In this document: positions 18,625-54,970 of the stretch, piece by piece
How positions within the stretch are numbered: position 1 is the first letter of the stretch
How the letters are laid out: the number at the start of each line of letters is the position of its first letter
Origin: Tolypothrix bouteillei VB521301
Lineage (GTDB): Bacteria; Cyanobacteriota; Cyanobacteriia; Cyanobacteriales; Nostocaceae
Direction: 5' to 3'
Assembly: GCF_000760695.4 (NCBI RefSeq)
Contig: NZ_JHEG04000001.1
Coordinates: 4,732,895-4,796,894 of the forward strand
Length of the DNA stretch: 64,000 bases
Notes under the pieces: generated by a model
Database searches by the model: none
What the model was told of the DNA's origin: nothing
The model's input: only the letters and a program-made list of their open reading frames with translations
Program-made: the position numbers and the translations under genes

Positions 18625-21261
18625 TTAAGATAATAAAAACGCTTTAGCAGCAGCGCGAACAACGCGGTTACTATCTTCAGTAAGATACTGGCGGATGCGG
18701 GGAGGCGTGTTAGGATTTTGAGCGATCGCATACCGTTCGAGCCAGCAAGAAGAGCGAAAGTTCTTTGCTAAAAACGAGCTAGGAGCGAGTGGGTTCAGGA
18801 AAACAATCAAGCGAGTAAAAGAGAAAGATTTGGAAGATTGGGCATAACCTTGTAAAAATTTCCCTACACTTTTGGAACCTCGTTGAATGAGAGTTTTAAC
18901 GGCTGCTTGATGTACCTCGTTCCATTTCTTTTTACGGGCTAGTTGTTCGATAATGCTATCGGGAGTTTGGGGGTTCTGTGCAACAGCACGCAAAACTTCT
19001 TGAGTTTTGTCTTTGGCTAGCTGCTGTATCAACTCGATAGGCGTGTTCGGGTTTTGAGCAACACCAGCACGAACAATACTCGATCTATCTTTTGCTAACT
19101 GCTGTAAAAGGGGTGTAGAAGCGTTAGGGTGAAGGGCGAGGTTTTCGCGGATAAGTAACCATCGGCTTGTGGCTAGATTGGTAAGGATGTCTGATGGTGT
19201 TTCTGGGTTCTGCACGGTTTGCCACTGCTGTAAAATATTCCCTGGCTTATTACTATTTTGAGAAAAGTTTTGCTGGTAGCCCGCTATAGCTGCAAGTCTT
19301 GTATCTTTTTCCGTATCTTCTAGCAATTTTTCCAAAAGATTGACAGGAGTGTTAGGGTGTTTTGCAACTAGTGCGCGAAGTTGAGACTTAGGGTGTTTTG
19401 CCAGTTGCTTGAGAACATTTACAGGAGTGTTGGGATGTCGGGCAAGCGCTACTTTTATAGCACTATTATCAAGTGTGGCTGATTGTTCCAGAATGCTGCT
19501 GGGAAGATCGGAGTCTTGAATAATACGCTGGTAGAGATGAGCTAGGGCTTCTTTCTGAACTGCCGGATCGCGATCGTTAACGAGTTGTAGTAATATTGCA
19601 GCAGGAGTATTGGGATGCTGTGCTAACCATTGCCGATGTACGCCCTTTGCAAGATCTTCTAAAACAGGAGCAGGTGTACTTGGGTGACGGGCTATTATGA
19701 AGAGAACTCTGTCATCTTTTGTGTTTGCCAAGTTTTGTAAAATCTTACTAAGAAGCTCCGAATGCTCGGATGTTTGTTTAACTCTAAGAAGCACGGCATC
19801 TTTTACTTGTCCGCTCGTGTCTTTTGCTAAAATCTCTAAGGTAGAGAGCGGTGTATTCGGGTTGGATGCTACAGTTAGACGGACATTCCAGCACGGATCT
19901 TTTGCTAGCTTGGAAAGAGCTTTAACTGGGGTATCGGGATGACGCGCTACAGATTCTCGAACACCAGTGTTAGTATCCAACGCTAGTTTGTCCAAAACAC
20001 GAGCAGACATATCTTGAGCAAGGGATAAATTCTTTAAAATTGTCTGATGGCTATTTTGCTCGTTCCAATTGGGTATGGTTAACTTGGGTAAGTCAAGACG
20101 GGTTTGCCAATCTTTCTTCAGTGCGAGTTCTTGTAATATGTTTTTTGGTGTATTGGGATGAATGGCAACCCCTTTGCGAATTTGCATCCACTGACTTGTA
20201 GCAAGTTTTTCGAGAGTATCTGCTGAAGTCAAAGGATTTTTAATTGCTGCTTGTTGCAGTTGAAACTCTTGCAGGAGTGCCAAAGGTATTTTAGGGTTAC
20301 AAGCAACTGCTTCTCGAACAAGAGATTCATGATGTCCTACCAGTTCTTCCAGTACACTGATAGGAGTATTGGGATTTTCAGCTAAAGAAATCAGATCTTC
20401 GTTTCTCAAATAATTTTTATCCCCAAGGTCAGAATTTTTTGCTATCCGATGCAAAATGTCTTCGGGAGTACCAAGCTCAGAATTTTTTGCTATCTCAAGC
20501 AAAATGTGTTCGGGAGTATCGGAATCACCAACTAAAATCAGCCAAGTGTCTGGATGCAAAGCAGAAAGTAAATACTCCGGGATTGCTCCTATTTTCCATA
20601 ACACTGCCTCTTCCTCGGTTCCATCGCTCAAGGAAGAAGTTTGCATTGCTGTTAAAGCTGCTTCCTCCCATCCCTCGCTCATCTCACCTGCCCAATTAAC
20701 ATGAAGCAAAGCCGCTTCAGCTACACTAGAAAGATAGCTTCCATTAACAGCGTTTTCTTCGTCAGCTTTATATTTTTCAATCAGTTTTTCCAAAACACTT
20801 TTGGGTGTTTTGGCATTCGCAACCACAGCCAACAATGCTTCCCAATCGGAATAATTTGAATTATCTACGAATGTAACTAAATACTCTTCTGGTATTGCCT
20901 TTGCCTTGAGCAGACTGCATAAAGTTTCTGTTGGTATCTCTTTTAGTAAGTTCGGATTTTCCAGCATGAGCAACGAAAACACTGGATTACTCAAAACTTC
21001 TTCAGGAAATTCCTCTCCTAATTTCCACAAAACTTGAGTGGGCGTGTTGGGATTGCTAGCAACGCATTGAAGGGTTTTTTTATCAGAACTTGACCCTAAT
21101 TCCAACAAAAGTTGGGAGTCGGTATTTGGATTCTTTGCTACTAACCGCGCTAGTTCGGTATTCAACTTGGCTAATTCCAGCAATCGTGCAGCCGATGTGT
21201 TTTCACTGACTGCTTCTTGTTGAAGAACAGATTTTTCCAGAGAGTCGCGATCTTGATGCAT
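18625..21261 (-). CDS. LRV-repeat solenoid protein, long form (878 aa)
   Basis: Roughly twenty leucine-rich repeat variant units, for example VRAGVAQNPNTPIELIQQLA and VRESVARHPDTPVKALSKLA. The N-terminal cap (residues about 60-90) has EEFPEEVLSNPVFSLLMLEN. A divergent acidic insert at about 140-240 (EAALLHVNWAGEMSEGWEEA) recurs in the 1022-aa paralogue. The C-terminal cap is CWLERYAIAQNPNTP ... RVVRAAAKAFLLS. It has no signal peptide or membrane helix, so it is a cytoplasmic alpha solenoid. The characterised LRV protein of Azotobacter carries a 4Fe-4S cluster in an N-terminal Cys motif; I see no such cysteine cluster here. The role is unknown. It heads a two-gene unit with the short LRV gene. 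Confidence 0.88.
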   Translation of the reverse strand: MHQDRDSLEKSVLQQEAVSENTSAARLLELAKLNTELARLVAKNPNTDSQLLLELGSSSDKKTLQCVASNPNTPTQVLWKLGEEFPEEVLSNPVFSLLMLENPNLLKEIPTETLCSLLKAKAIPEEYLVTFVDNSNYSDWEALLAVVANAKTPKSVLEKLIEKYKADEENAVNGSYLSSVAEAALLHVNWAGEMSEGWEEAALTAMQTSSLSDGTEEEAVLWKIGAIPEYLLSALHPDTWLILVGDSDTPEHILLEIAKNSELGTPEDILHRIAKNSDLGDKNYLRNEDLISLAENPNTPISVLEELVGHHESLVREAVACNPKIPLALLQEFQLQQAAIKNPLTSADTLEKLATSQWMQIRKGVAIHPNTPKNILQELALKKDWQTRLDLPKLTIPNWNEQNSHQTILKNLSLAQDMSARVLDKLALDTNTGVRESVARHPDTPVKALSKLAKDPCWNVRLTVASNPNTPLSTLEILAKDTSGQVKDAVLLRVKQTSEHSELLSKILQNLANTKDDRVLFIIARHPSTPAPVLEDLAKGVHRQWLAQHPNTPAAILLQLVNDRDPAVQKEALAHLYQRIIQDSDLPSSILEQSATLDNSAIKVALARHPNTPVNVLKQLAKHPKSQLRALVAKHPNTPVNLLEKLLEDTEKDTRLAAIAGYQQNFSQNSNKPGNILQQWQTVQNPETPSDILTNLATSRWLLIRENLALHPNASTPLLQQLAKDRSSIVRAGVAQNPNTPIELIQQLAKDKTQEVLRAVAQNPQTPDSIIEQLARKKKWNEVHQAAVKTLIQRGSKSVGKFLQGYAQSSKSFSFTRLIVFLNPLAPSSFLAKNFRSSCWLERYAIAQNPNTPPRIRQYLTEDSNRVVRAAAKAFLLS

Positions 21262-22435: not shown

Positions 22436-22878
22436 TGAGTTGCGTAAGTTATGTTACGAAAAATCCTTATGGATAAACGAAAATAATTACACTAGCATTT
22501 ATGCTTAGAAAAGTTCGCGTTTAACGTTGTCCAAGAGAATAAGGGATTGAACCAGTTCTTCTATTTGGAAATTAATCTATGATGGCATCATCACAGAGAA
22601 GGAGGAAGAAGTACTCGACTAGCGAGAGATCGCTACTTTTACCTAAAATGGGTAAAGGATATCTGAGGTGGGCGTAGCGATCGCTGAAAGATAGAGTTTT
22701 GTTTGTTAGGCTTGAGCAGAAGATTTAAAATTTTAATTAATAATCTCTATGCGTCACTCCAATATATCAACTCTTTATCCTTGTTCACAATTAGTCTGAG
22801 ACAAGACAAAAGTTTATCAATAAATAACAGCGAATTAAATTCATCTAGTACAATTTATTGATATTTATAGCTAAATCA
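22436..22878. other. Intergenic region upstream of the kinase operon
   Basis: About 440 bases of AT-rich sequence with an AGAAGGAGGAAGAAG purine stretch near 22600 and two GCGATCGC-type sites at about 22680. It has no ORF with a ribosome binding site and no recognised RNA. The promoter of the kinase-receiver-MBL operon must lie in its right part. A -10-like TATCAATAAATAA region is visible at about 22815, but I cannot fix it. Confidence 0.35.
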
Positions 22879-24942
22879 ATGATGCATTTTAAGTTTTCAC
22901 CAAAAATTCTACAAAGGCTGGGAGAAGAACTCGTTCCGAATCCAGACCAAGGAATCATCGAATTGGTTAAGAACTCTTATGATGCTGATGCTACTGAATG
23001 CACAGTAGAACTTATCAAAACTAGCGCTATAGGTGGCTCGATTATTATTTCAGATAACGGTTTTGGTATGGATAAAGATGCCATTAGTGAGGGATGGCTG
23101 GTGCTAGGTCGCTCGAAAAAAGCTATCCGTGAAGTTACTCAATTAGGTCGCTTACCTGTAGGTAATAAAGGATTAGGTAGGTTAGCGGCTCTACAGATGG
23201 GTTCTCAGGTACTTTTGAAAACTAGACCTAAAGATGAACCAGGAGTTGAATATTCTCTAACGATTAATTGGAATGATTTTCAGGAAGCTGATGTCGTAGA
23301 AGATGTTTCATTTGATGTCCTAAAAAGTAGTACAGATAAAAAGTATGGGACTGACATTATAGTTAGAAATCTTAAAAATATATTCACTAAGCGTGACATC
23401 CAAAGACTAGCTAGAGAGCTTTTATTGTTAGCAGAGCCGTTTGATAATCAGGCTGGTTTCCGTATTCAACTTATTGCTCCAGAATTTTCTGAGATTGAAC
23501 AACAAGTTAATAATACTTACTTTAGTGATGCTGAATATCATTTGAAAGCTTATATAAATGAAGACGGGATTGCTGAAGCAAGTCTGTTAGACTGGCAGGG
23601 AAACGTAATTTTTCGTGCATTGCATAGCGAGCTTTCTCAAAAAACTTCTGAAGCTCCTTACAAAACACCTCCAACAGAGTTTGAATTGTGGGTATTCTTG
23701 CTAAATCCTCAAAGTTTTTCAGCGAGAAAAACTTCTGTCTCTGTCAAGCAAGTTAGAGAATGGCTTGCTCAAGCAGGGAATGTTCATCTATACCATCAAG
23801 GGCTGCGGGTAAAACCTTATGGCGATCCAGATGATGATTGGTTGAACTTAAATTATTCACGAGCGAGGAATCCAGAGGTACGTCCTTCAACAAAAACGGT
23901 TATTGGTAGAGTGATTGTTAATGACCCTAGCGATATGTTAATTCAGAAAACCGATCGGCTTGGTTTCATTGAAAATGAAGCTTTTTTAGAGTTAAAACGT
24001 TTCGCAATTGATGTGTTAGAGTGGATGGCTAAAGAAAGACTTAAAGTTACTGAAACGCAAAGAGAAAGAGTTAAGAAACAAATTCCTCGTGATATTACAG
24101 AAGCTAAAGCAAAAATTGAAGAAGTTATTGAAGCAAAAGTTCCTCAAGAATCTCGCCCTATAGTCCTAAAAGCTGTTGAGCAATATGAAGTTATAACAGA
24201 ACGTGAAACCAAGATATTACGTGAAGACCTTCAGCTTTATCGCAGTCTTGCTACAGCAGGAACAACTGCAGCAGTTTTCGCTCATGAATCTGGCAAACCA
24301 GTGACTTTAATTGAAAAAATAGCTAAGAGAATAGAAAAAAAGGGTAAAGAAATTTTGGGAGAAAAATATCAAACTTACTTAGGAGATCCGGTTGAGATTC
24401 TTTATAAAGTAAGTCAATCATTACTACGCTTTTCTAATTTTCCACTGCATCTGTTGAAACGAGAAAAACGCCGTGCAGGTGTTGTCTATATTCACAATGT
24501 AATTGACGATATGATTGCACTTTTTGAACCTTTTTTTGATGAAGGCAAAATTGAAATTATCAAAGAGACAATTAATACAAATCCTTGTATTTATGGAAGC
24601 ACTGCTTTGTTAGAAGCAATTATTACAAATCTTTTAACAAACGCTATAAATGCTTTTAACGTTACGGGTGGACGTATAGAAGGACGAAAAATAGTTATTA
24701 GAACTGAAATTGAAGGCAGTCATTTAAAAATTAAAGTTTTGGATAATGGTTCGGGAATTCATAACATAAAATTAGACGAAATTTGGCTGCCTGGTAAAAC
24801 AACTAGAGAAGGTGGTACAGGTTTGGGATTGACAATTGTTAGAGATTCTGTAACCGATCTGGGAGGAATGGTACAAGCAATTCCAAAAGGTGAATTAGGT
24901 GGAGCAGAATTTATTGTAGAATTAACACTTGTTGGAGAGTAA
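22879..24942 (+). CDS. Double-GHKL sensor histidine kinase (Hsp90-like ATPase N-terminus)
   Basis: 687 aa from the ATG at 22879; an upstream TTG at 22858 would add 7 residues. The N-terminal HATPase_c_3/Hsp90-like domain has ELVKNSYDADA (N box), SDNGFGMDKDAI (G1) and LPVGNKGLGRLAAL (G2/lid). A middle region to about residue 400 resembles the Hsp90/MutL transducer part, followed by a coiled coil (about 390-450). The H-box-like AAVFAHESGKPVTLIEKI has histidine at about residue 469, and a second, classical HATPase_c domain follows (ITNLLTNAINAFN, LDNGSGIH, GGTGLGLTIVRDSV). There is no membrane segment, so it is a cytoplasmic sensor. It is followed after 5 bases by a receiver gene and then an MBL gene: one operon. 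Confidence 0.88.
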   Translation: MMHFKFSPKILQRLGEELVPNPDQGIIELVKNSYDADATECTVELIKTSAIGGSIIISDNGFGMDKDAISEGWLVLGRSKKAIREVTQLGRLPVGNKGLGRLAALQMGSQVLLKTRPKDEPGVEYSLTINWNDFQEADVVEDVSFDVLKSSTDKKYGTDIIVRNLKNIFTKRDIQRLARELLLLAEPFDNQAGFRIQLIAPEFSEIEQQVNNTYFSDAEYHLKAYINEDGIAEASLLDWQGNVIFRALHSELSQKTSEAPYKTPPTEFELWVFLLNPQSFSARKTSVSVKQVREWLAQAGNVHLYHQGLRVKPYGDPDDDWLNLNYSRARNPEVRPSTKTVIGRVIVNDPSDMLIQKTDRLGFIENEAFLELKRFAIDVLEWMAKERLKVTETQRERVKKQIPRDITEAKAKIEEVIEAKVPQESRPIVLKAVEQYEVITERETKILREDLQLYRSLATAGTTAAVFAHESGKPVTLIEKIAKRIEKKGKEILGEKYQTYLGDPVEILYKVSQSLLRFSNFPLHLLKREKRRAGVVYIHNVIDDMIALFEPFFDEGKIEIIKETINTNPCIYGSTALLEAIITNLLTNAINAFNVTGGRIEGRKIVIRTEIEGSHLKIKVLDNGSGIHNIKLDEIWLPGKTTREGGTGLGLTIVRDSVTDLGGMVQAIPKGELGGAEFIVELTLVGE

Positions 24943-24947
24943 ATTTT

Positions 24948-25649
24948 ATGATTGTAACACAAGCTTTACATGAAAAAATAATAGCTATAGTTGATGATGA
25001 CACCACACAGGCTAAAGCAACAGTATGGGAAATAGAGGACGCAGGTTATAAACCATTTTTATTAGATAATGGAAATTTTCACAATGTCAATGACTTGGTA
25101 TCTCTTATTAGAGAAAATGCTCAAGGTGCCGTGTGCGATCACCGATTGAGTAATTCGGGATTTGCTAATTTTTATGGAGCAGAATTAGTTGCGGCTTTAT
25201 ATGACATAAAATTTCCATCAATATTGATAACACAATACACAGAGATGGATACATCTTTTTCGATTAGAAAATGGAGACATAAAATCCCAGTACTACTTAG
25301 TCGAAAAGAAGCCAATGCTTCAAGGATTGCTAAGGGAATAGAAGATTGTACCTCAGAACTTTCTGGGAAAGTACCAAGTACCAGAAAACCTCGTAGAACG
25401 ATAGTTAGGATTGCTAATATTGATGAAGAATCTAATGAACCTGTTGTAGATGCATTTGTTCCTAGTTGGAATCCCTATACGGCTGTTCGTTTTCCAGCTT
25501 CTCTGATTCCAGAGAATATTAGAGTTGCATTAAAACCAGATATGCGTTTATTTGCTTATGTAAACACAGGAGCAGAAAAACCTGATGATCTGTATTTTGA
25601 AAAATTTGAATTAGCACCTGAACCAGATGAAGATGATGGACTCACCTGA
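24948..25649 (+). CDS. Receiver-domain protein with novel C-terminal domain
   Basis: 233 aa. Residues about 10-125 form a CheY-like receiver: acidic triad IVDDD (residues 16-18), predicted phospho-acceptor Asp64 in GAVCDHRLS, Thr95 in ILITQYTE, and a lysine near residue 120 after PVLL. The C-terminal part (about 145-225) is beta-rich (RTIVRIANIDEES, AVRFPASLIPENI, RLFAYVNTGAEKP) and matches no DNA-binding output domain that I recognise, so it is not a usual transcription factor. The acidic end (PEPDEDDG) overlaps the MBL start. It is the presumed partner of the upstream kinase. Confidence 0.8.
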   Translation: MIVTQALHEKIIAIVDDDTTQAKATVWEIEDAGYKPFLLDNGNFHNVNDLVSLIRENAQGAVCDHRLSNSGFANFYGAELVAALYDIKFPSILITQYTEMDTSFSIRKWRHKIPVLLSRKEANASRIAKGIEDCTSELSGKVPSTRKPRRTIVRIANIDEESNEPVVDAFVPSWNPYTAVRFPASLIPENIRVALKPDMRLFAYVNTGAEKPDDLYFEKFELAPEPDEDDGLT

Positions 25650-26652
25650 ACTAATTATTTTAGATGTTGGACATGGAAATTGTGCGTTAATCAGAGATGC
25701 AAATGATGTAATTGTTATTGACTGTCCCCCAGGGGGTACGTTGGTAGAAACTCTTGAGCATCTATCTATTACAGAAATTTTACATATCCTCATTTCCCAT
25801 TCTGATGCAGATCATATTGGAGGGATAATTGACTTACTCTCAAATAAAGATATCAAAGTTCACAACGTACATATAAACCCTGATGCAATTAAGAACAGTG
25901 CAATTTGGAAGGATGTACGTTATTCTTTACAAGATGCTCGCAAACGAGGAACTAAAGTTTCATCAGAATTAACAACAACAAAAACGGGGATTTTGAACAT
26001 TGGTTCAGTCAATATAGAAGTCCTTGCACCCACACCTGAATTAAATTTAAGTGGTGCTGGAGGAACTGATTTACAAGGACGGCGATTAACTTCTAACTCA
26101 ATATCAGCCGTTATCGGCATAGTTCACGATTCTCACAGAGTGGCCATACTAGCAGCGGATATTGATAGTGTAGGATTTGACAATTTGATTCAAGATCAAA
26201 AGACTTTGAGCGCTGACATCCTTGTTTTTCCTCATCATGGTGGAAGACCAGGACGTGGAAATGCTAAAAAATTTGCCGAGCAAATTTGTACTTTTATCAA
26301 ACCAAAGTTCATCATATTCTCCATCGATCGCAATCGTTTTAATAATCCCCGTATAGAAATAGTAGAAGGTATTATTTCTTCAGTTCCAAATGTTCATATT
26401 TTATGCACTCAACTATCTCAACAATGTGCGGCTAGTCTTCCTAGTTCAAAGCCCACACATTTAAATAAACTTCCTGCTAGAGGGCTTAGCGGTAATAGCT
26501 GTTGTGGAGGAACTGTTACTATTAAAATAGATGGTCGCAGGACAACTTATGCTGAGATGACTTTACATAAAGAATTTATTGTTAATCAAGTAACTAGCCC
26601 AATATGTCGCAAGTTGTCATCTATAGTTAAACAGGATAATACAACTATTTAA
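25627..26652 (+). CDS. MBL-fold metallo-hydrolase (ComEC-like beta-lactamase fold)
   Basis: 341 aa. It opens ELIILDVGHGNCALIRDAND, then the metal motif ISHSDADHIGGI (H-x-D-x-D-H at residues 58-63). A further aspartate lies in LAADIDSVGF and the histidine pair in LVFPHHGGRPG. This is the layout of the stand-alone ComEC/Rec2-type MBL subgroup, which includes nucleases and phosphodiesterases. The C-terminus has several cysteines (ILCTQLSQQC, GNSCCGGTV). It overlaps the receiver gene by up to 23 bases (ATG codons at 25627, 25633 and 25636), which implies translational coupling. No signal peptide. It is likely the effector of the operon; the substrate is unknown. Confidence 0.85.
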   Translation: MKMMDSPELIILDVGHGNCALIRDANDVIVIDCPPGGTLVETLEHLSITEILHILISHSDADHIGGIIDLLSNKDIKVHNVHINPDAIKNSAIWKDVRYSLQDARKRGTKVSSELTTTKTGILNIGSVNIEVLAPTPELNLSGAGGTDLQGRRLTSNSISAVIGIVHDSHRVAILAADIDSVGFDNLIQDQKTLSADILVFPHHGGRPGRGNAKKFAEQICTFIKPKFIIFSIDRNRFNNPRIEIVEGIISSVPNVHILCTQLSQQCAASLPSSKPTHLNKLPARGLSGNSCCGGTVTIKIDGRRTTYAEMTLHKEFIVNQVTSPICRKLSSIVKQDNTTI

Positions 26653-26670
26653 TTAAAATATCCGTATGTG

Positions 26671-26706
26671 AAAGCTCCGAAAATGATTATGGTTTCGAGC
26701 TTTTTT
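26671..26706 (+). terminator. Rho-independent terminator of the kinase-receiver-MBL operon
   Basis: AAAGCTCCGAAA pairs with TTTCGAGCTTT (one bulged C) around a 10-base loop, followed by a T run (26701-26706). It stands 18 bases after the MBL stop. Confidence 0.8.
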
Positions 26707-26777
26707 ATTTAAAGCTGTTGAAATTGCTGAAAAAATTGAGACGGCTCCCTTGTCGTTAGAAGATTACCTATGGGCTT

Positions 26778-26798
26778 AGGGTGGGCAATGCCCACCCT
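26778..26798. repeat. AGGGTGGGC palindrome
   Basis: AGGGTGGGCAATGCCCACCCT, a perfect 9-bp inverted repeat with a 3-base loop. The same unit is at 31361 (as a terminator) and, degenerate, at 50911. It marks a dispersed palindromic repeat family. Confidence 0.8.
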
Positions 26799-26924: not shown

Positions 26925-27242
26925 TTAAATTAACGTATTCAAATGTTGTATCAATTGTGGTGCTTGTACGACACCTTCAATCCGATCCACGGGCTGACCT
27001 TGTTTAAACACCATCAGTGTTGGTAAAGCTTCAATCCGATACTCTGTTGCCAGCTGGGGATATTTTTCAGTATCAATTTTGACAACTCTAATCCGCCCTT
27101 GGAGTTGGGCGTTGACTTGCTCTAGAATCGGGCTCATCATGTGACAAGGACCGCACCAGTCAGCGTAAAAATCCACTAAGACAGGAACATCAGAGCCAGA
27201 TAGCATCTCTTCAAAGCTGTTGAATTGCTTTTTGGTAGTCAT
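26925..27242 (-). CDS. trxA: Thioredoxin
   Basis: 105 aa with the classical thioredoxin fold: VPVLVDFYADWCGPCHMMSP with the redox pair CGPC, KIDTEKYPQLATEYRIEALP with the cis-proline (ALPT), and MVFKQGQPVDRIEG. It reduces disulfides of target enzymes in the cytoplasm using ferredoxin or NADPH via thioredoxin reductase. Length and motifs are those of m-type or closely related thioredoxins. It is monocistronic, on the minus strand and divergent from fabG. It marks the right border of the accessory island. Confidence 0.95.
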   Translation of the reverse strand: MTTKKQFNSFEEMLSGSDVPVLVDFYADWCGPCHMMSPILEQVNAQLQGRIRVVKIDTEKYPQLATEYRIEALPTLMVFKQGQPVDRIEGVVQAPQLIQHLNTLI

Positions 27243-28276: not shown

Positions 28277-29356
28277 TCAAGCCGTTCGTATTCTTTGCAA
28301 AACCACGAAGCCCAAGAGAGAGACTATGCCAACGGTAGTGGCAAGCATCTGTAGTAAACTCATATTTTGCAATCTCATCGCCAACAAATTGCAAATCAAA
28401 GCAATTGTCCAAAGAGTAAGCGCTGCATGACGTTGAGATAGACCCCATGCAAGCAAGCGGTGATGTAGGTGGTCTTTACCAGGAGTGCTAAGAGGATTTT
28501 TACCTGCCATCAAGCGTCTGATAAACACTTGAGTCGTGTCTAGCACTGGTAGGAGTAGAAATAAAACTGGAGCTACTAAAGAGACAGCTGTGGGGGCTTG
28601 TAAGTTCCCTAAAATACCAGTAGCTGCTAGTACGTAACCGAAAAAGTATGCTCCAGCATCACCCATAATAATTCGTGAGGGGTGGAAATTATGACGTAAA
28701 AAACCTAGTGCTGCACCTCCGAGTGCTGCCAAAACTAATGTTGCTGCAGCACGGTTGGGAACTTGGGCGGAAACAGCGAGTAGACTCATGGCAGAGATAA
28801 AACTGACTCCTCCTGCCAAACCATCCATGCCGTCCATCAAGTTAATGGCATTGGTGATTCCTACCACCCACAGTACTGTTAGTAATATCGATAGTATATA
28901 GTCAAATGGAGTGCCAAAGGAAACATTCATGGTGATCCGATTGGCAACCAATAACAGAGCTGTCAGTATTTGAATTAATAAGCGAAAAAGAGGAGGTAAA
29001 CCGAACTGGTCGTCGATAAAACCCACAAGTACTAAGATCGAACCACCTAGTAAAATAGTGAGTACCTGAGCCAGCACTCTTTCAAGTTCAATAGGTCGTA
29101 AGAGACTCGCGAGTACCACCGCAGCAATCACGCCCGCATAAATAGCCAAACCCCCTGCATTGGGTAGAGGTTCGCGGTTAAGTCGTCGTGCATTTGGTTG
29201 GTCAGCCCATCCAACTTTCAAGGCAAACTTACGAACTGAGGGAATCATGCGCCAAGTGACTGCATAAGCTAAGAGAAATGTAAAAACTACTGCCAACCAG
29301 CCGGAACCACTGGGGTCAGCAATACCTAGGTAACGAAGGGCGTTGTATATATTCAT
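28277..29356 (-). CDS. Polyprenyl-phosphate N-acetylaminosugar-1-phosphate transferase (WecA/TagO/MraY superfamily)
   Basis: 359 aa with about eleven membrane helices. Cytoplasmic motifs of the PNPT superfamily are present: GFIDDQFGLP (D-D Mg site), NAINLMDGMDGLAGG, FGYVLAATG after IIMGDAGAYF, and the C-terminal KDHLHHRLLAWG (H-x-H-H-R). The HxHHR loop is typical of the WecA/TagO branch, which moves a GlcNAc- or related sugar-1-phosphate to undecaprenyl phosphate to start glycan synthesis, rather than MraY. The exact sugar is not predictable. The stop lies next to the STRR array. Confidence 0.88.
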   Translation of the reverse strand: MNIYNALRYLGIADPSGSGWLAVVFTFLLAYAVTWRMIPSVRKFALKVGWADQPNARRLNREPLPNAGGLAIYAGVIAAVVLASLLRPIELERVLAQVLTILLGGSILVLVGFIDDQFGLPPLFRLLIQILTALLLVANRITMNVSFGTPFDYILSILLTVLWVVGITNAINLMDGMDGLAGGVSFISAMSLLAVSAQVPNRAAATLVLAALGGAALGFLRHNFHPSRIIMGDAGAYFFGYVLAATGILGNLQAPTAVSLVAPVLFLLLPVLDTTQVFIRRLMAGKNPLSTPGKDHLHHRLLAWGLSQRHAALTLWTIALICNLLAMRLQNMSLLQMLATTVGIVSLLGFVVLQRIRTA

Positions 29357-51667: not shown

Positions 51668-54600
51668 TTAAGCTGAATCTTGTGTTTTATGAGCAAGATG
51701 AGATTTAGCTGTAGCACGAACTATACGGTTAGCGTCTTGGACAAGTTGCTGTAAAATTTCCGTTGGGGTTCTGGGATTTTGAGCTATGGCATATCGCTCC
51801 AACCAATACCAAGAACGAAAGTGTTTTGCAAGTAGTGCTTTAGGAGCCATTGGATGTAACAAAACGAACAATCGAGCAAAAGTCAGGCGATCGGAACCTG
51901 CATATTGTTCTAGAAGTGCTGATGCAGTTTCTACTTTGCGATCGAGGAGGTTTTTGATAGCGGCTGTTCTCAGCTGCTGGTTTTCTCCTGAATTATTTAT
52001 GAAACTATTGAGCAAATCAATGGGTGTATGGGGGTTTTGAGCAACAGCCATGCGAACATCAAGGCACGTATCTGCTGCTAATTGTTCTAAAATATTAGCT
52101 GGAGTGTTAGAATGACGGGCAACAAGAACGCGAATTGGCAAAGAATTACTACTAGCAAGTTCTGCAAGGCTATCTGCATCAGTTTTCAAATTGTTTACGG
52201 CTACAAACTGTTTGATAATATCGCGATCGTCCGCTAGCCAACTCAAACTCAGTATCGCTTCTTCTGCAACAATATAATTTTCATCTTCTATCAATTGCAG
52301 CAAAACGTTTACAGGTGTATTTGAGTTATAAGCAACAGTAGCACGAACTTGCCAATGTGAATGTTTTCCCAATAGTTCTAGGGCTTGCTTTGGAGTGTTA
52401 GGATGACGGGCAACAACTATGCCCAAGCGCCAATCTTTATCAAGAGCTAATCTTGTAAGTATATCTCCAGATAGGTTTTGGTCTTGAGTAAAATGATAGA
52501 CAAGATTTACTACCGCTAATTCCCGAACACATTCAACGAATCTACCAGCATATACAATATCTGTTCTACAATCAGCCTTATCTTGTAATAAATTTATAAC
52601 AAGCATTATGGGAGTATTTGGATTGTAAGCTACAGCTCCACGAACATCTCCATGATTATCTTTTGCAAGTTGCTTGAGAATGCTACTGGATGTTTTGTTG
52701 TTGGCAGCAACTGCCTGTCTCACCTTATAGTCTATATCCCGTGCTAACTGCTCTAATATTTCTAAGGGTGTTTTGTTGTTGGTAGCAACTGCCGTTCTAA
52801 CTGCATAGAATTTATCTTGCGCCAGTTGTCTTACAAGCTCAAAAGTGACATTCGGATGAGAAGCTACCGCAAAACGCACGAATTCTCCATAAGGATAGTT
52901 TAATAGCTGCTCCAGTATACTTGTGGGAGTGTCGGTATGTAACTCTATATTAAAGCGATCGTAAGATCCTAATTTTAGCTTAACATCATGGGGACAGAAA
53001 CAATCAGATCTTAGTATAAAATTAGCGGTTTCTCGAACATGGTTATTGCTATCTTTTGCTAGTTTTTCTAAAGTCATTCTAGAAATATTGGCATTTTGAC
53101 TGACAAACAAACGCACGTTTACTTCTGAATCTCTGCTCAAATACTCCAAAACACTTTCCGGTACATTTGCATGACAAGCAACAGCTTCACGTACAAAAAA
53201 AGTCTTATCTTGAGCTAGTAGTGCTAAAATTTTCCCAGAAGTCTTAGGATTTTTTGCTACAGCATCACGGATATAATCTTTTTCATCTGTTGCTATTCGT
53301 TGCAAAATATCTTGTGGTGTTGAAGGATTTTTAGCTATTTTTAGCAAAATAGCTTCATGACGCTTTGCTAATAACTCATTTAATAAATTAACAGTTACAT
53401 TGGGATTTTCTGCTATTGCTGCACGAACTCTCCAATTTTTTTCTTGACTCAATTTTTCTAAAGTTTGTAAATGAGTATGATGATTGTTTGCTACAGATAC
53501 TCTAACCTCTTGACTTTTATCTTCCGCCAATTGTTCTAAAATTTTAGTAGAAATCTTGCTATGACTAGCTACTATTTTTCTGACTCTCCAATCGTCATCT
53601 CTTGCTAACTGTTCTAAAATTTCTACTGGTGTATTGGCATGATAAGCAACCCGTTGCCGAATCAGTAACCATTGACTTTTAGCAAGTTCTGTCAGTAAAT
53701 TAACAGTTGCATTTACATCTGCTACTGCTTGTTGCTGTAAGCAGAACTTTTGCAATGCCTTGAAAGATAATTTAGGATGAAGAGTAATTGATTGGCGAAC
53801 TTCTACAGAATCATCACCCACCAATTGTTCTAATATATTTAAAGGTATGTTTGGGTTTTCAGCAGCGTAACATCGTACATATTTTTTTGGAGATACTGAT
53901 AGCTGTTCTAAAACTGATAGAGCAGTATATGGATTTTTGGCAATTGTTTCAAGCATTTCTGGCATTAATATTGGCAGTACAAACTCAGGAAGAACACCAA
54001 TTTCCCACAATAGTTGCTCGTTTGACGAGTTAAGAGTTGTTTTAAGAATTGATGCTTGTACCACTGCATCAATGTCTTCATCAATTTCCTCTACCCAGTT
54101 GATATGTAGTTTTGCGGACTCAGCAATTTCAAGGTTACATGAAGCGTCACATGCCTCAAATTCGCCGTCATAGCCGCCGTCCCCCCACATTGGATCTCTT
54201 TGAGCAGAAATATAACCTTCTTCTACATCAAAATATTTATTATGAACAATTTTTTCTAAATAATTTTTAGAAGTTTGAGGATTCATAAGGAGTGTCATTA
54301 GCACTGTTCGATCGGAATGTTGTGACGCAAAATCAAGTAGTATTTTTGGCACGTTATTCTGCATTAACAAACCTTGCAATGCTTCTACAGATAAATCTTC
54401 AAATATATTTGTTTCTTCCAGACAAAGAAGAGGAAAAATTGGATTTTCTAACACTTGTTCCGGGAATTCTTCAGCTAAATTTAGAAAAATATCTTTAGAT
54501 ATATTAGGATTAAGAGCAACTGCTTGACGAATTGTTCGGTCTGGGGATACTGCTAATTTAGAGAGTAATTCAGAGTCAGCACCAGGGTTTTTTGCAACTA

Positions 54601-54703
54601 ACTGAGCAAGAGAGGAACTTTGTTGGGCAAGCTGACGTAGTTCGCTACTAGGTGTAGTGGGATCGCAAGCTCTTTGCTCGGAACTCGGTTTTTGAGTAGA
54701 CAT
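51668..54703 (-). CDS. LRV-repeat solenoid protein, longest form (1011 aa)
   Basis: About 25 LRV units, for example VRTAVATNNKTPLEILEQLA and VRMAVAQNPHTPIDLLNSFI. N-terminal cap EEFPEQVLENPIFPLLCLEE; the acidic insert SAKLHINWVEEIDEDIDAVV matches the one in the 878-aa paralogue; C-terminal cap YWLERYAIAQNPRTP with NRIVRATAKSHL. ATG at 54703 (MSTQKPSSEQRACDPTTPSS) is preferred: an upstream ATG at 54736 lies in the decayed duplicate of the DUF4129 gene. Soluble, no signal peptide, function unknown. Its 5' boundary coincides with the duplication border at 54716. Confidence 0.88.
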   Translation of the reverse strand: MSTQKPSSEQRACDPTTPSSELRQLAQQSSSLAQLVAKNPGADSELLSKLAVSPDRTIRQAVALNPNISKDIFLNLAEEFPEQVLENPIFPLLCLEETNIFEDLSVEALQGLLMQNNVPKILLDFASQHSDRTVLMTLLMNPQTSKNYLEKIVHNKYFDVEEGYISAQRDPMWGDGGYDGEFEACDASCNLEIAESAKLHINWVEEIDEDIDAVVQASILKTTLNSSNEQLLWEIGVLPEFVLPILMPEMLETIAKNPYTALSVLEQLSVSPKKYVRCYAAENPNIPLNILEQLVGDDSVEVRQSITLHPKLSFKALQKFCLQQQAVADVNATVNLLTELAKSQWLLIRQRVAYHANTPVEILEQLARDDDWRVRKIVASHSKISTKILEQLAEDKSQEVRVSVANNHHTHLQTLEKLSQEKNWRVRAAIAENPNVTVNLLNELLAKRHEAILLKIAKNPSTPQDILQRIATDEKDYIRDAVAKNPKTSGKILALLAQDKTFFVREAVACHANVPESVLEYLSRDSEVNVRLFVSQNANISRMTLEKLAKDSNNHVRETANFILRSDCFCPHDVKLKLGSYDRFNIELHTDTPTSILEQLLNYPYGEFVRFAVASHPNVTFELVRQLAQDKFYAVRTAVATNNKTPLEILEQLARDIDYKVRQAVAANNKTSSSILKQLAKDNHGDVRGAVAYNPNTPIMLVINLLQDKADCRTDIVYAGRFVECVRELAVVNLVYHFTQDQNLSGDILTRLALDKDWRLGIVVARHPNTPKQALELLGKHSHWQVRATVAYNSNTPVNVLLQLIEDENYIVAEEAILSLSWLADDRDIIKQFVAVNNLKTDADSLAELASSNSLPIRVLVARHSNTPANILEQLAADTCLDVRMAVAQNPHTPIDLLNSFINNSGENQQLRTAAIKNLLDRKVETASALLEQYAGSDRLTFARLFVLLHPMAPKALLAKHFRSWYWLERYAIAQNPRTPTEILQQLVQDANRIVRATAKSHLAHKTQDSA

Positions 54704-54715
54704 TATAATAATCTT

Positions 54716-54970
54716 ATATGAAACTTTAATTACCACTTACGAGCAATTGTATTTTAGCAATGCGGATATAAGCTCTGAGAATTACGAGCATTGCCAACAA
54801 GCTTGTGAAGAGCTAATGGCTAATTGCTAATGGCTAATTGCTAATGGCTAATTGCTAATGGCTAATGGTTAATGGTTATGGAAAGTCGAGGAACTCGCAT
54901 TCAACTCTAGCAAAAGCCTTTTGAGGATCTCAAGCTCGAGAAACGCCCAATCACTTTTGTGCAAATAAAC
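54716..54970 (+). pseudogene. Decayed duplicate of the DUF4129 tail and part of DUF4350
   Basis: Positions 54716 to about 54822 repeat 49606-49712 (the end of the DUF4129 gene) with about four differences. Positions 54877-54970 repeat 49942-50035 (inside DUF4350) with five differences in 94 bases. Between them, about 210 bases of the original (the STRR and the DUF4350 start) are replaced by a longer GCTAATG heptamer array. The DUF4350 part carries a stop (CTCTAG where the intact copy has CGCTGG), so it is not functional. It shows that the Uma2/LRV insertion came with a partial duplication of the operon. Confidence 0.92.

Follow-up and report, generated by a model that had tools for sequence, protein, structure and literature searches.

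A mobile kinase, receiver and MBL-fold hydrolase operon in Tolypothrix bouteillei and its possible role in restriction-like defence

The operon and its setting

We analysed a stretch of 64,000 nucleotides from the cyanobacterium Tolypothrix bouteillei VB521301 (contig NZ_JHEG04000001.1, positions 4,732,895 to 4,796,894 of the forward strand; hereafter the window), in which an earlier reading of the letters had picked out a three-gene operon in the region 22858..26652 as a candidate defence or stress switch. The open reading frames (ORFs) lie where the original prediction had placed them, all on the + strand: gene A, a sensor kinase with two GHKL domains (22879..24942, 687 amino acids); gene B, a divergent receiver (24948..25649, 233 amino acids); and gene C, a ComEC-like hydrolase of the metallo-beta-lactamase (MBL) fold (25627..26652, 341 amino acids). 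Together they form a conserved, mobile unit. The kinase and receiver genes are separated by 5 bases and the receiver and MBL genes overlap by 23 bases, as had been claimed, and the same overlap is found in 16 of the 20 cyanobacterial copies, the window counted. Gene A had been listed from a TTG at 22858 (22858-24942), but the ATG at 22879 appears the likelier start and agrees with the homologues.

As for the accessory setting, homology between the window and a 19.9-kb stretch of the same-genus genome G489 begins at 26795, a short way past the right end of the operon, and with two other relatives it begins at 26925. A search for the empty site placed the right junction (26795 against G489) and did not find the left one. 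On the upstream side, blastn-short comparison with the 600 bases 5' of each copy showed parts of about 190 bases (22675..22861, + strand) to be common to 6 of the 18 other cyanobacterial copies (L010, L011, L013, L015, L018 and L020); we take this block for the left part of the transferred unit and a possible promoter region. The downstream flank has nothing in common with any of the 15 copies tested. The terminator said to close the operon is seen in folding, as a hairpin with a T-run at about 26666..26708 on the + strand (-10.2 kcal/mol, z -2.45), but it is absent from the output of a simple pattern-based terminator scan.

Domains and active sites of the three proteins

Both ATPase domains claimed for the kinase are recognised by Pfam, HATPase_c_3 (PF13589) at residues 25-146 (1.5e-21) and HATPase_c (PF02518) at residues 577-683 (1.4e-19). 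The N-terminal half (22879..24048, about residues 1-390) is a MORC/MutL-like GHKL ATPase followed by a region with a conserved QKTDR loop, which as in other members of the family would be S5-like, with the loop in its usual role. The C-terminal half (24196..24939, about residues 440-687) holds a DHp helix, with H469 (codon 24283-24285) inside the motif FAHES, and the HATPase_c catalytic domain. When the kinase profile was compared with solved structures, the C-terminal half matched ZraS and other kinases (4e-20) and the N-terminal half matched MORC3 (3e-4) and MORC2 chains. Seventeen residues are invariant in 26 of 26 kinases: E28, N32, D35, D59, G61, G63, K97, G98, G100, K357, R360, H469, E470, N584, D622, G648 and G650. 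Two further positions vary, Q356 being present in 24 and G624 in 21 of the 26 copies. The kinase is probably soluble.

The receiver domain takes up about residues 10-125, and the window protein carries D16, D17, D64 (codon 25137-25139) and T95. An alignment of 129 receivers combined the best 120 of 161 relatives with 8 proteins from the Bacteroidota side and the receiver of the window, which occurs in it twice; D16 and D17 are found in 126 of them (3 are gapped) and T/S95 in all 129. The description of the receiver as complete thus stands for these residues, but not for the usual lysine, which appears to be absent. No family in Pfam, PADLOC or NCBIfam matched the receiver at E <= 1, and all 17 weak matches in the PDB (E 0.24-1) are response regulators. 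A broad profile (A9) matched 16 receiver-like frames from 15 loci, at 1e-11 to 2e-5, in a small search set whose loci A9 itself had served to choose beforehand; in the alignments viewed, the Asp pair and D64 are in register, and the L058 and L059 receivers, which the set included, gave no match. The C-terminal domain of about 95 residues is conserved and corresponds to no known family. These last 95 residues would form the output surface toward the MBL. No sequence relation between the receiver and the MBL was found.

The MBL protein matches Lactamase_B (PF00753, 8e-11), and its HxDxDH site is intact, as claimed (residues 58-63, 25798-25815). All 26 copies compared have the metal-site residues H58, D60, D62, H63, D178, H203 and H204, as well as four cysteines in the last third of the protein (C260, C267, C293 and C327). 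The closest solved structures are ComEC proteins (3e-10). Searching the plasmid collection with the Burkholderia MBL at E <= 1e-10 returned only the three records with the cassette and, in three Burkholderia cenocepacia records, a match of 72 residues. The MBL therefore looks dedicated to the cassette in this collection.

Distribution and horizontal transfer

The receiver is the most specific part of the cassette. A search among 5.77 billion proteins returned 161 at E <= 1e-3, and among the best 120 of these the named ones are almost all cyanobacterial. When GTDB contigs were scanned with a profile of 21 aligned receivers (A1), 22 loci were found. As the original prediction required, the three genes recur together elsewhere and are not a universal core set: the order kinase, receiver, MBL is kept in 20 of the 22 loci (19 cyanobacterial and one Bacteroidetes metagenome-assembled genome), and at the level of the order the receiver profile finds 9 of 291 genomes, our own included. 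In L029 the kinase is divided and the contig then ends. L028:8497-8775 is a decayed copy, of which a lone C-terminal fragment of the receiver is left (93 residues, 81% identical); the locus has neither kinase nor MBL.

At the level of the phylum 17 of 386 genomes match at E <= 1e-3, of which 8 are strong (E < 1e-80, own included) and 9 are weak (2e-5 or worse). Among the Bacteroidota 30 of 395 genomes match receiver profiles, 4 strongly and 26 at 2e-6 or worse. Weak matches cover about residues 5-100 only (one reaches 146) and look like ordinary receivers. Plasmid copies occur in Pseudanabaena, Hymenobacter and Burkholderia, which are three of 72,556 records, and a receiver scan of viral contigs found no relative. 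The MBL gene of the Pseudanabaena plasmid ABRG53c (L053:9674-11627) is interrupted by an IS982 transposase gene.

The cassette is under purifying selection (dN/dS, the ratio of non-synonymous to synonymous substitution rates, is 0.21-0.47 in five comparisons), and of the 33 positions checked in kinase and MBL, 31 are invariant in all 26 copies, which come from three phyla. Pairwise distances of genes A, B and C correlate at 0.93-0.95 in the 20 cyanobacterial copies, as expected if the genes travel together, with common descent also contributing. Their neighbours mostly differ between genomes, though some are common to L010/L013, L011/L015 and L014/L017. Between the window and five carriers of other genera, A, B and C have a synonymous divergence (dS) of 0.31-0.67, against 1.7-2.5 for the core gene fabG and 1.4-2.1 for the next gene (28277-29356) in the same pairs; between the window and the same-genus G489 these two core genes give 0.33 and 0.29. 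Movement of the cassette between genera by horizontal transfer is the best explanation, because the dS of the triple is well below that of the core genes in all five pairs. In three more distant pairs the triple gives 0.84-1.30 and fabG is too diverged for dS. In the tree the Burkholderia copy groups with two Bacteroidota copies, with moderate support (92/82).

DNA methylase genes outside the cyanobacteria

One point missed by the original prediction is that the operons outside the cyanobacteria carry a DNA methylase. An ORF of 415-484 amino acids adjoins or overlaps the kinase gene, directly upstream of it, in all six distinct non-cyanobacterial loci that were fetched (L030, L054, L055, L089, L090 and L091), a sample drawn from Bacteroidota and Burkholderia. 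The receivers known from the Bacteroidota side, 8 proteins in all, include others on further contigs. Pfam N6_Mtase matches the L030 methylase at 1.3e-13 and that of L055 at 7.8e-4, just under the cut-off. The L054 protein is annotated as an N-6 DNA methylase, the rest were assigned through mutual identities of 34-47% where compared, and the motif NPPF is present in all six. A methylase within the operon suggests that DNA is what the cassette senses or protects.

Comparison with known systems

Detocs had been put forward as the reference for this operon, but a double-GHKL kinase beside a divergent receiver turned out to be a described kind, linked to restriction-modification (R-M). In Bellieny-Rabelo et al. 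2021 (PMC8011034), kinases of the architecture HATPase_c_3+HEF_HK+HATPase_c are linked to Response_reg_2 genes in 91.6% of cases, over 644 regions, and are enriched near R-M genes. The features in common are the N-terminal HATPase_c_3, a DHp with an invariant His-Glu, the C-terminal HATPase_c, an adjacent divergent receiver and, for our cassette outside the cyanobacteria, methylase and nuclease genes nearby. A search of the phylum of L030 for such kinases matched 8 of 198 genomes at E <= 1e-3, four of them over the cut-off, and in profile comparison four HEF_HK kinases align with our kinase profile across its whole length (99.8%, E 6.7e-28).

There are also differences. The kinase has 687 amino acids here against 967-1001 in the four fetched HEF_HK kinases, and it has no Pfam match to PF19191 (HEF_HK) at E <= 1. 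The window receiver and four relatives have no match to PF19192 (Response_reg_2), and the receiver is not confidently alignable with four Response_reg_2-type proteins (hhalign probability 1.3%). The effector of the HEF_HK systems is HNH or Vsr, where here it is an MBL, and no methylase was found in the cyanobacterial loci. At L041, which holds one of the four HEF_HK kinases, a Vsr-like ORF and a C5-methylase (both assigned by eye) are followed by kinase, Response_reg_2 and HNH_2 proteins. Because the kinase homology is full-length and yet neither PF19191 nor PF19192 matches, the cassette is, on sequence comparison, a sister branch of the HEF_HK/Response_reg_2 systems and not a member as these models define them. 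The claim that no described system has exactly this set holds in so far as no paper on the kinase-receiver-MBL trio appeared among the matches listed from the open-access literature, but the kinase-receiver pairing itself was already described (PMC8011034).

Like the prokaryotic MORC/paraMORC proteins that Iyer et al. 2008 (PMC2292703) describe in R-M systems, the kinase has a GHKL ATPase, as its N-terminal half. The MORC3 and MORC2 structures match this half, and outside the cyanobacteria the R-M context is common to both. Here, in contrast to those proteins, the ATPase is fused to a histidine-kinase core, the MBL is a separate partner, and the operon has no helicase.

A more distant operon on Deinococcus gobiensis plasmid P2 (L058) runs from an Eco57I-type methylase through a kinase and a receiver-like protein to an HNH nuclease. 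The resemblance lies in the methylase coming first and the nuclease last, and the kinases are 24.6% identical over nearly their whole length. In contrast to our cassette, the methylase is of another type (annotated Eco57I-like), HNH stands in place of the MBL, and the receiver-like protein shows PF00072 below the cut-off only and no match to our receiver profile. The MBL may occupy a nuclease slot, because L058 has its HNH nuclease at the same place. One Campylobacter coli plasmid, the one examined of 22 Campylobacter records, has a kinase and a receiver and then a convergent dcm.

ComEC is a DNA-uptake protein. Our MBL has in common with the MBL domain of ComEC/Rec2 the HxDxDH, the later Asp and the HHG motifs, but it stands alone and has about 340 amino acids against about 800; the four invariant cysteines may be a further difference. 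Detocs has a sensor kinase containing tetratricopeptide repeats (TPRs) and a purine nucleoside phosphorylase as its effector. It places kinase, receiver and effector in one operon, with a receiver that lacks a DNA-binding domain, as here. The kinase in the window, however, has only HATPase families in Pfam, with a MORC-type ATPase rather than TPRs as its input, its effector is an MBL rather than a phosphorylase, and the non-cyanobacterial operons add a methylase. Membership in Detocs was rejected on the missing TPR and on an effector other than the phosphorylase, and Detocs is best treated as an analogue and not as a demonstrated relative.

Proposed function and alternatives

The reading that we favour, and to which we give about even confidence, is that the cassette is a mobile, phosphorylation-gated, restriction-like defence system, because the methylase link, the R-M-linked relatives of the kinase, the nuclease slot and the mobility all point that way. 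The N-terminal MORC-type ATPase of the kinase would close on foreign DNA or on DNA whose state is abnormal, and this closure would cause the C-terminal kinase core, whose motifs are intact, to phosphorylate itself on H469. As gene order and motifs suggest, the phosphate would then pass to D64 of the receiver, whose C-terminal domain would bind the MBL and switch it on. The MBL, acting as a ComEC-like metal-dependent nuclease, would destroy DNA, either the invader's or that of the infected cell itself. In Bacteroidota and Burkholderia self is likely marked by the operon methylase, of which the gene and the NPPF motif are seen. The cyanobacterial form would have lost the methylase or never had it, and may use methylation made elsewhere in the cell; alternatively it may work as an abortive-infection switch. 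Control of the MBL by phosphorylation of the receiver, which the original prediction had proposed, seems reasonable, and DNA sensing, nuclease activity and an anti-phage effect are what we infer for the cassette as a whole.

Several results weigh against this restriction-like reading, and the first concerns the strongest R-M clue, which the cyanobacterial operon does not have. A cognate methylase is absent from the window operon and present in its six fetched non-cyanobacterial relatives. A tblastn search with four methylases (E <= 0.01; 1e-4 for L092) found none in 26 distinct cyanobacterial loci, the window included; in 22 of them at least 1.9 kb of sequence precedes the kinase, and L014, L019, L028 and L029 cannot decide. 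The search covers homologues of the four queries, and methylases of other types may lie near the cyanobacterial copies. The own genome gave no match to the Hymenobacter methylase, in a search without positive control. Because a methylase precedes all six fetched non-cyanobacterial operons and none was found in the cyanobacterial loci, the window operon looks like a short form of a methylase-kinase-receiver-MBL operon; the kinase tree has no usable root, its outgroups being too distant to polarise methylase loss against gain.

Other points on the same side come from the proteins themselves. D64 is kept in 124 of 129 receivers and lost in 5. The receivers without it (P0072, P0091, P0093, P0096 and P0097) have Ala in three cases, Asn in one and Tyr in one. 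The usual lysine site at the end of strand 5, which was placed by eye, has Lys in just 3 of 129; the other 126 carry one of Ser, Asn, Thr, Asp and Ala there. The next structure match of the MBL after ComEC is the choline-binding (phosphorylcholine) esterase CbpE (4e-8), and MBL substrates are many across the fold. The nuclease-slot argument draws on one distant operon and one HEF_HK locus.

The neighbouring genes count on that side as well. At E <= 1e-5 the 129 neighbours of 20 loci gave 115 PADLOC families, compared to 172 for 128 control proteins taken from the own genome at 20 regularly spaced places of 9 kb each, a crude control that sets one genome against 20 and counts families and not systems. 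Among the control matches listed, 22 of 25 families are PD-T4-6 models, and one of the 129 neighbours is the L030 methylase, which is part of the cassette. Defence-island enrichment was rejected, the neighbour count not being above the control. When 20 neighbours were scanned singly, just 7 had a PADLOC match at 1e-8, and the matches of the kinase, receiver and MBL themselves are weak, the best at 1.5e-11. Near the non-cyanobacterial copies 3 of 10 genes have a match. The nearness to known defence genes that had been expected is therefore seen in single cases, but not in the PADLOC count. At L013 genes for an oligonucleotide cyclase, a TIR effector and TGT adjoin the triple, a CBASS-type set that we take to be type IV, and at L055 a DUF4297-HerA lies about 6.5 kb from the operon. 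Such single cases make an association with defence islands suggestive.

With the methylase missing from the cyanobacterial form, abortive infection of the Detocs kind has to be considered, and we regard it as somewhat unlikely. Here a phage-induced signal other than DNA would act on the kinase and the receiver would free the MBL. The MBL would then destroy a small molecule or an RNA that the host cannot do without, killing the cell, and self-marking would play no part. The gene logic is the same (kinase, receiver without DNA-binding domain, enzyme), and the weak matches of the MBL to PADLOC models (RT-associated MBL, PDC-M48B and LmuA) would fit, as would the lack of a methylase in the cyanobacterial form. 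The MORC-type ATPase in place of TPRs speaks against it, as does the DNA methylase in the operon of all six fetched non-cyanobacterial relatives.

It is quite unlikely, in our view, that the genes serve cell physiology as a two-component system (for DNA damage, DNA uptake or stress), with the MBL acting on cellular DNA or on some other polymer and the set having no role in defence. The nearest MBL being that of a DNA-uptake protein would agree with this, and so would the neighbour test, which was not positive for defence genes. A selfish or defence unit, however, would better explain why the cassette is patchy, has moved between genera and phyla, keeps different neighbours and occurs on plasmids, and nothing in the analysis bears on the stress switch that the original prediction had offered. 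That the three genes are a chance or decaying set of neighbours and not one functional system is scarcely credible: the broken copies (the IS982 insertion, the L028 fragment and the divided L029 kinase) would suit it, but it is already contradicted by the order kept in 20 of 22 loci, the near-fixed overlaps, the 31 of 33 invariant positions and the dN/dS values.

A more specific form of the restriction-like reading is put forward as a tentative and, taken as a whole, unlikely proposal. The cassette would be a new branch of phosphorelay-gated restriction, in which a MORC-type clamp senses DNA, the phosphorylated receiver licenses the MBL nuclease, and the cyanobacterial form, having shed its own methylase, reads the resident methylation of the host as self. 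Restriction enzymes are usually under the control of methylation alone, and MORC ATPases silence mobile elements in eukaryotes. If the proposal is true, cutting would need ATP-driven DNA sensing plus a phosphate signal, and MORC ATPases would be linked to a bacterial signalling enzyme. A cassette that has the methylase in two phyla and apparently lacks it in a third, with a kinase and a receiver standing between sensing and effector, raises the questions of how a phosphorelay could gate the destruction of DNA and what marks self once the methylase is gone.

Additional observations

Repeat proteins, which the original prediction had assigned to LRV, lie in the window at 18625-21261 and 51668-54736; they have 32 matches in the own genome, and of 40 genomes searched 29 gave no match. 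Just upstream of its four-gene operon, the Hymenobacter plasmid carries genes for a PDC-M48B/LmuA-type MBL and a patatin-like protein (L054:2771-5189). Further relatives of the kinase were also seen. A second double-GHKL kinase, 26% identical, lies close to the four-gene operon of L091 (L091:633-2753), beside an ORF of 479 amino acids with weak apolipoprotein-like Pfam matches. Related plasmid kinases of Rhizorhabdus (L056:8119-10020) and Ensifer (L057:7989-10031) are followed by partners of 633-680 amino acids, for which Pfam gave no family. MT838277.1, a 5.4-kb unannotated 'Bacteriophage sp.' record from human faecal samples, holds a kinase that is 28% identical at 97% query coverage. Finally, the C-terminal end of a metagenome MBL (P0182) runs into the N-terminal motif of the kinase (LGEEIVPNPD), which may reflect a gene fusion or a different order of the genes.

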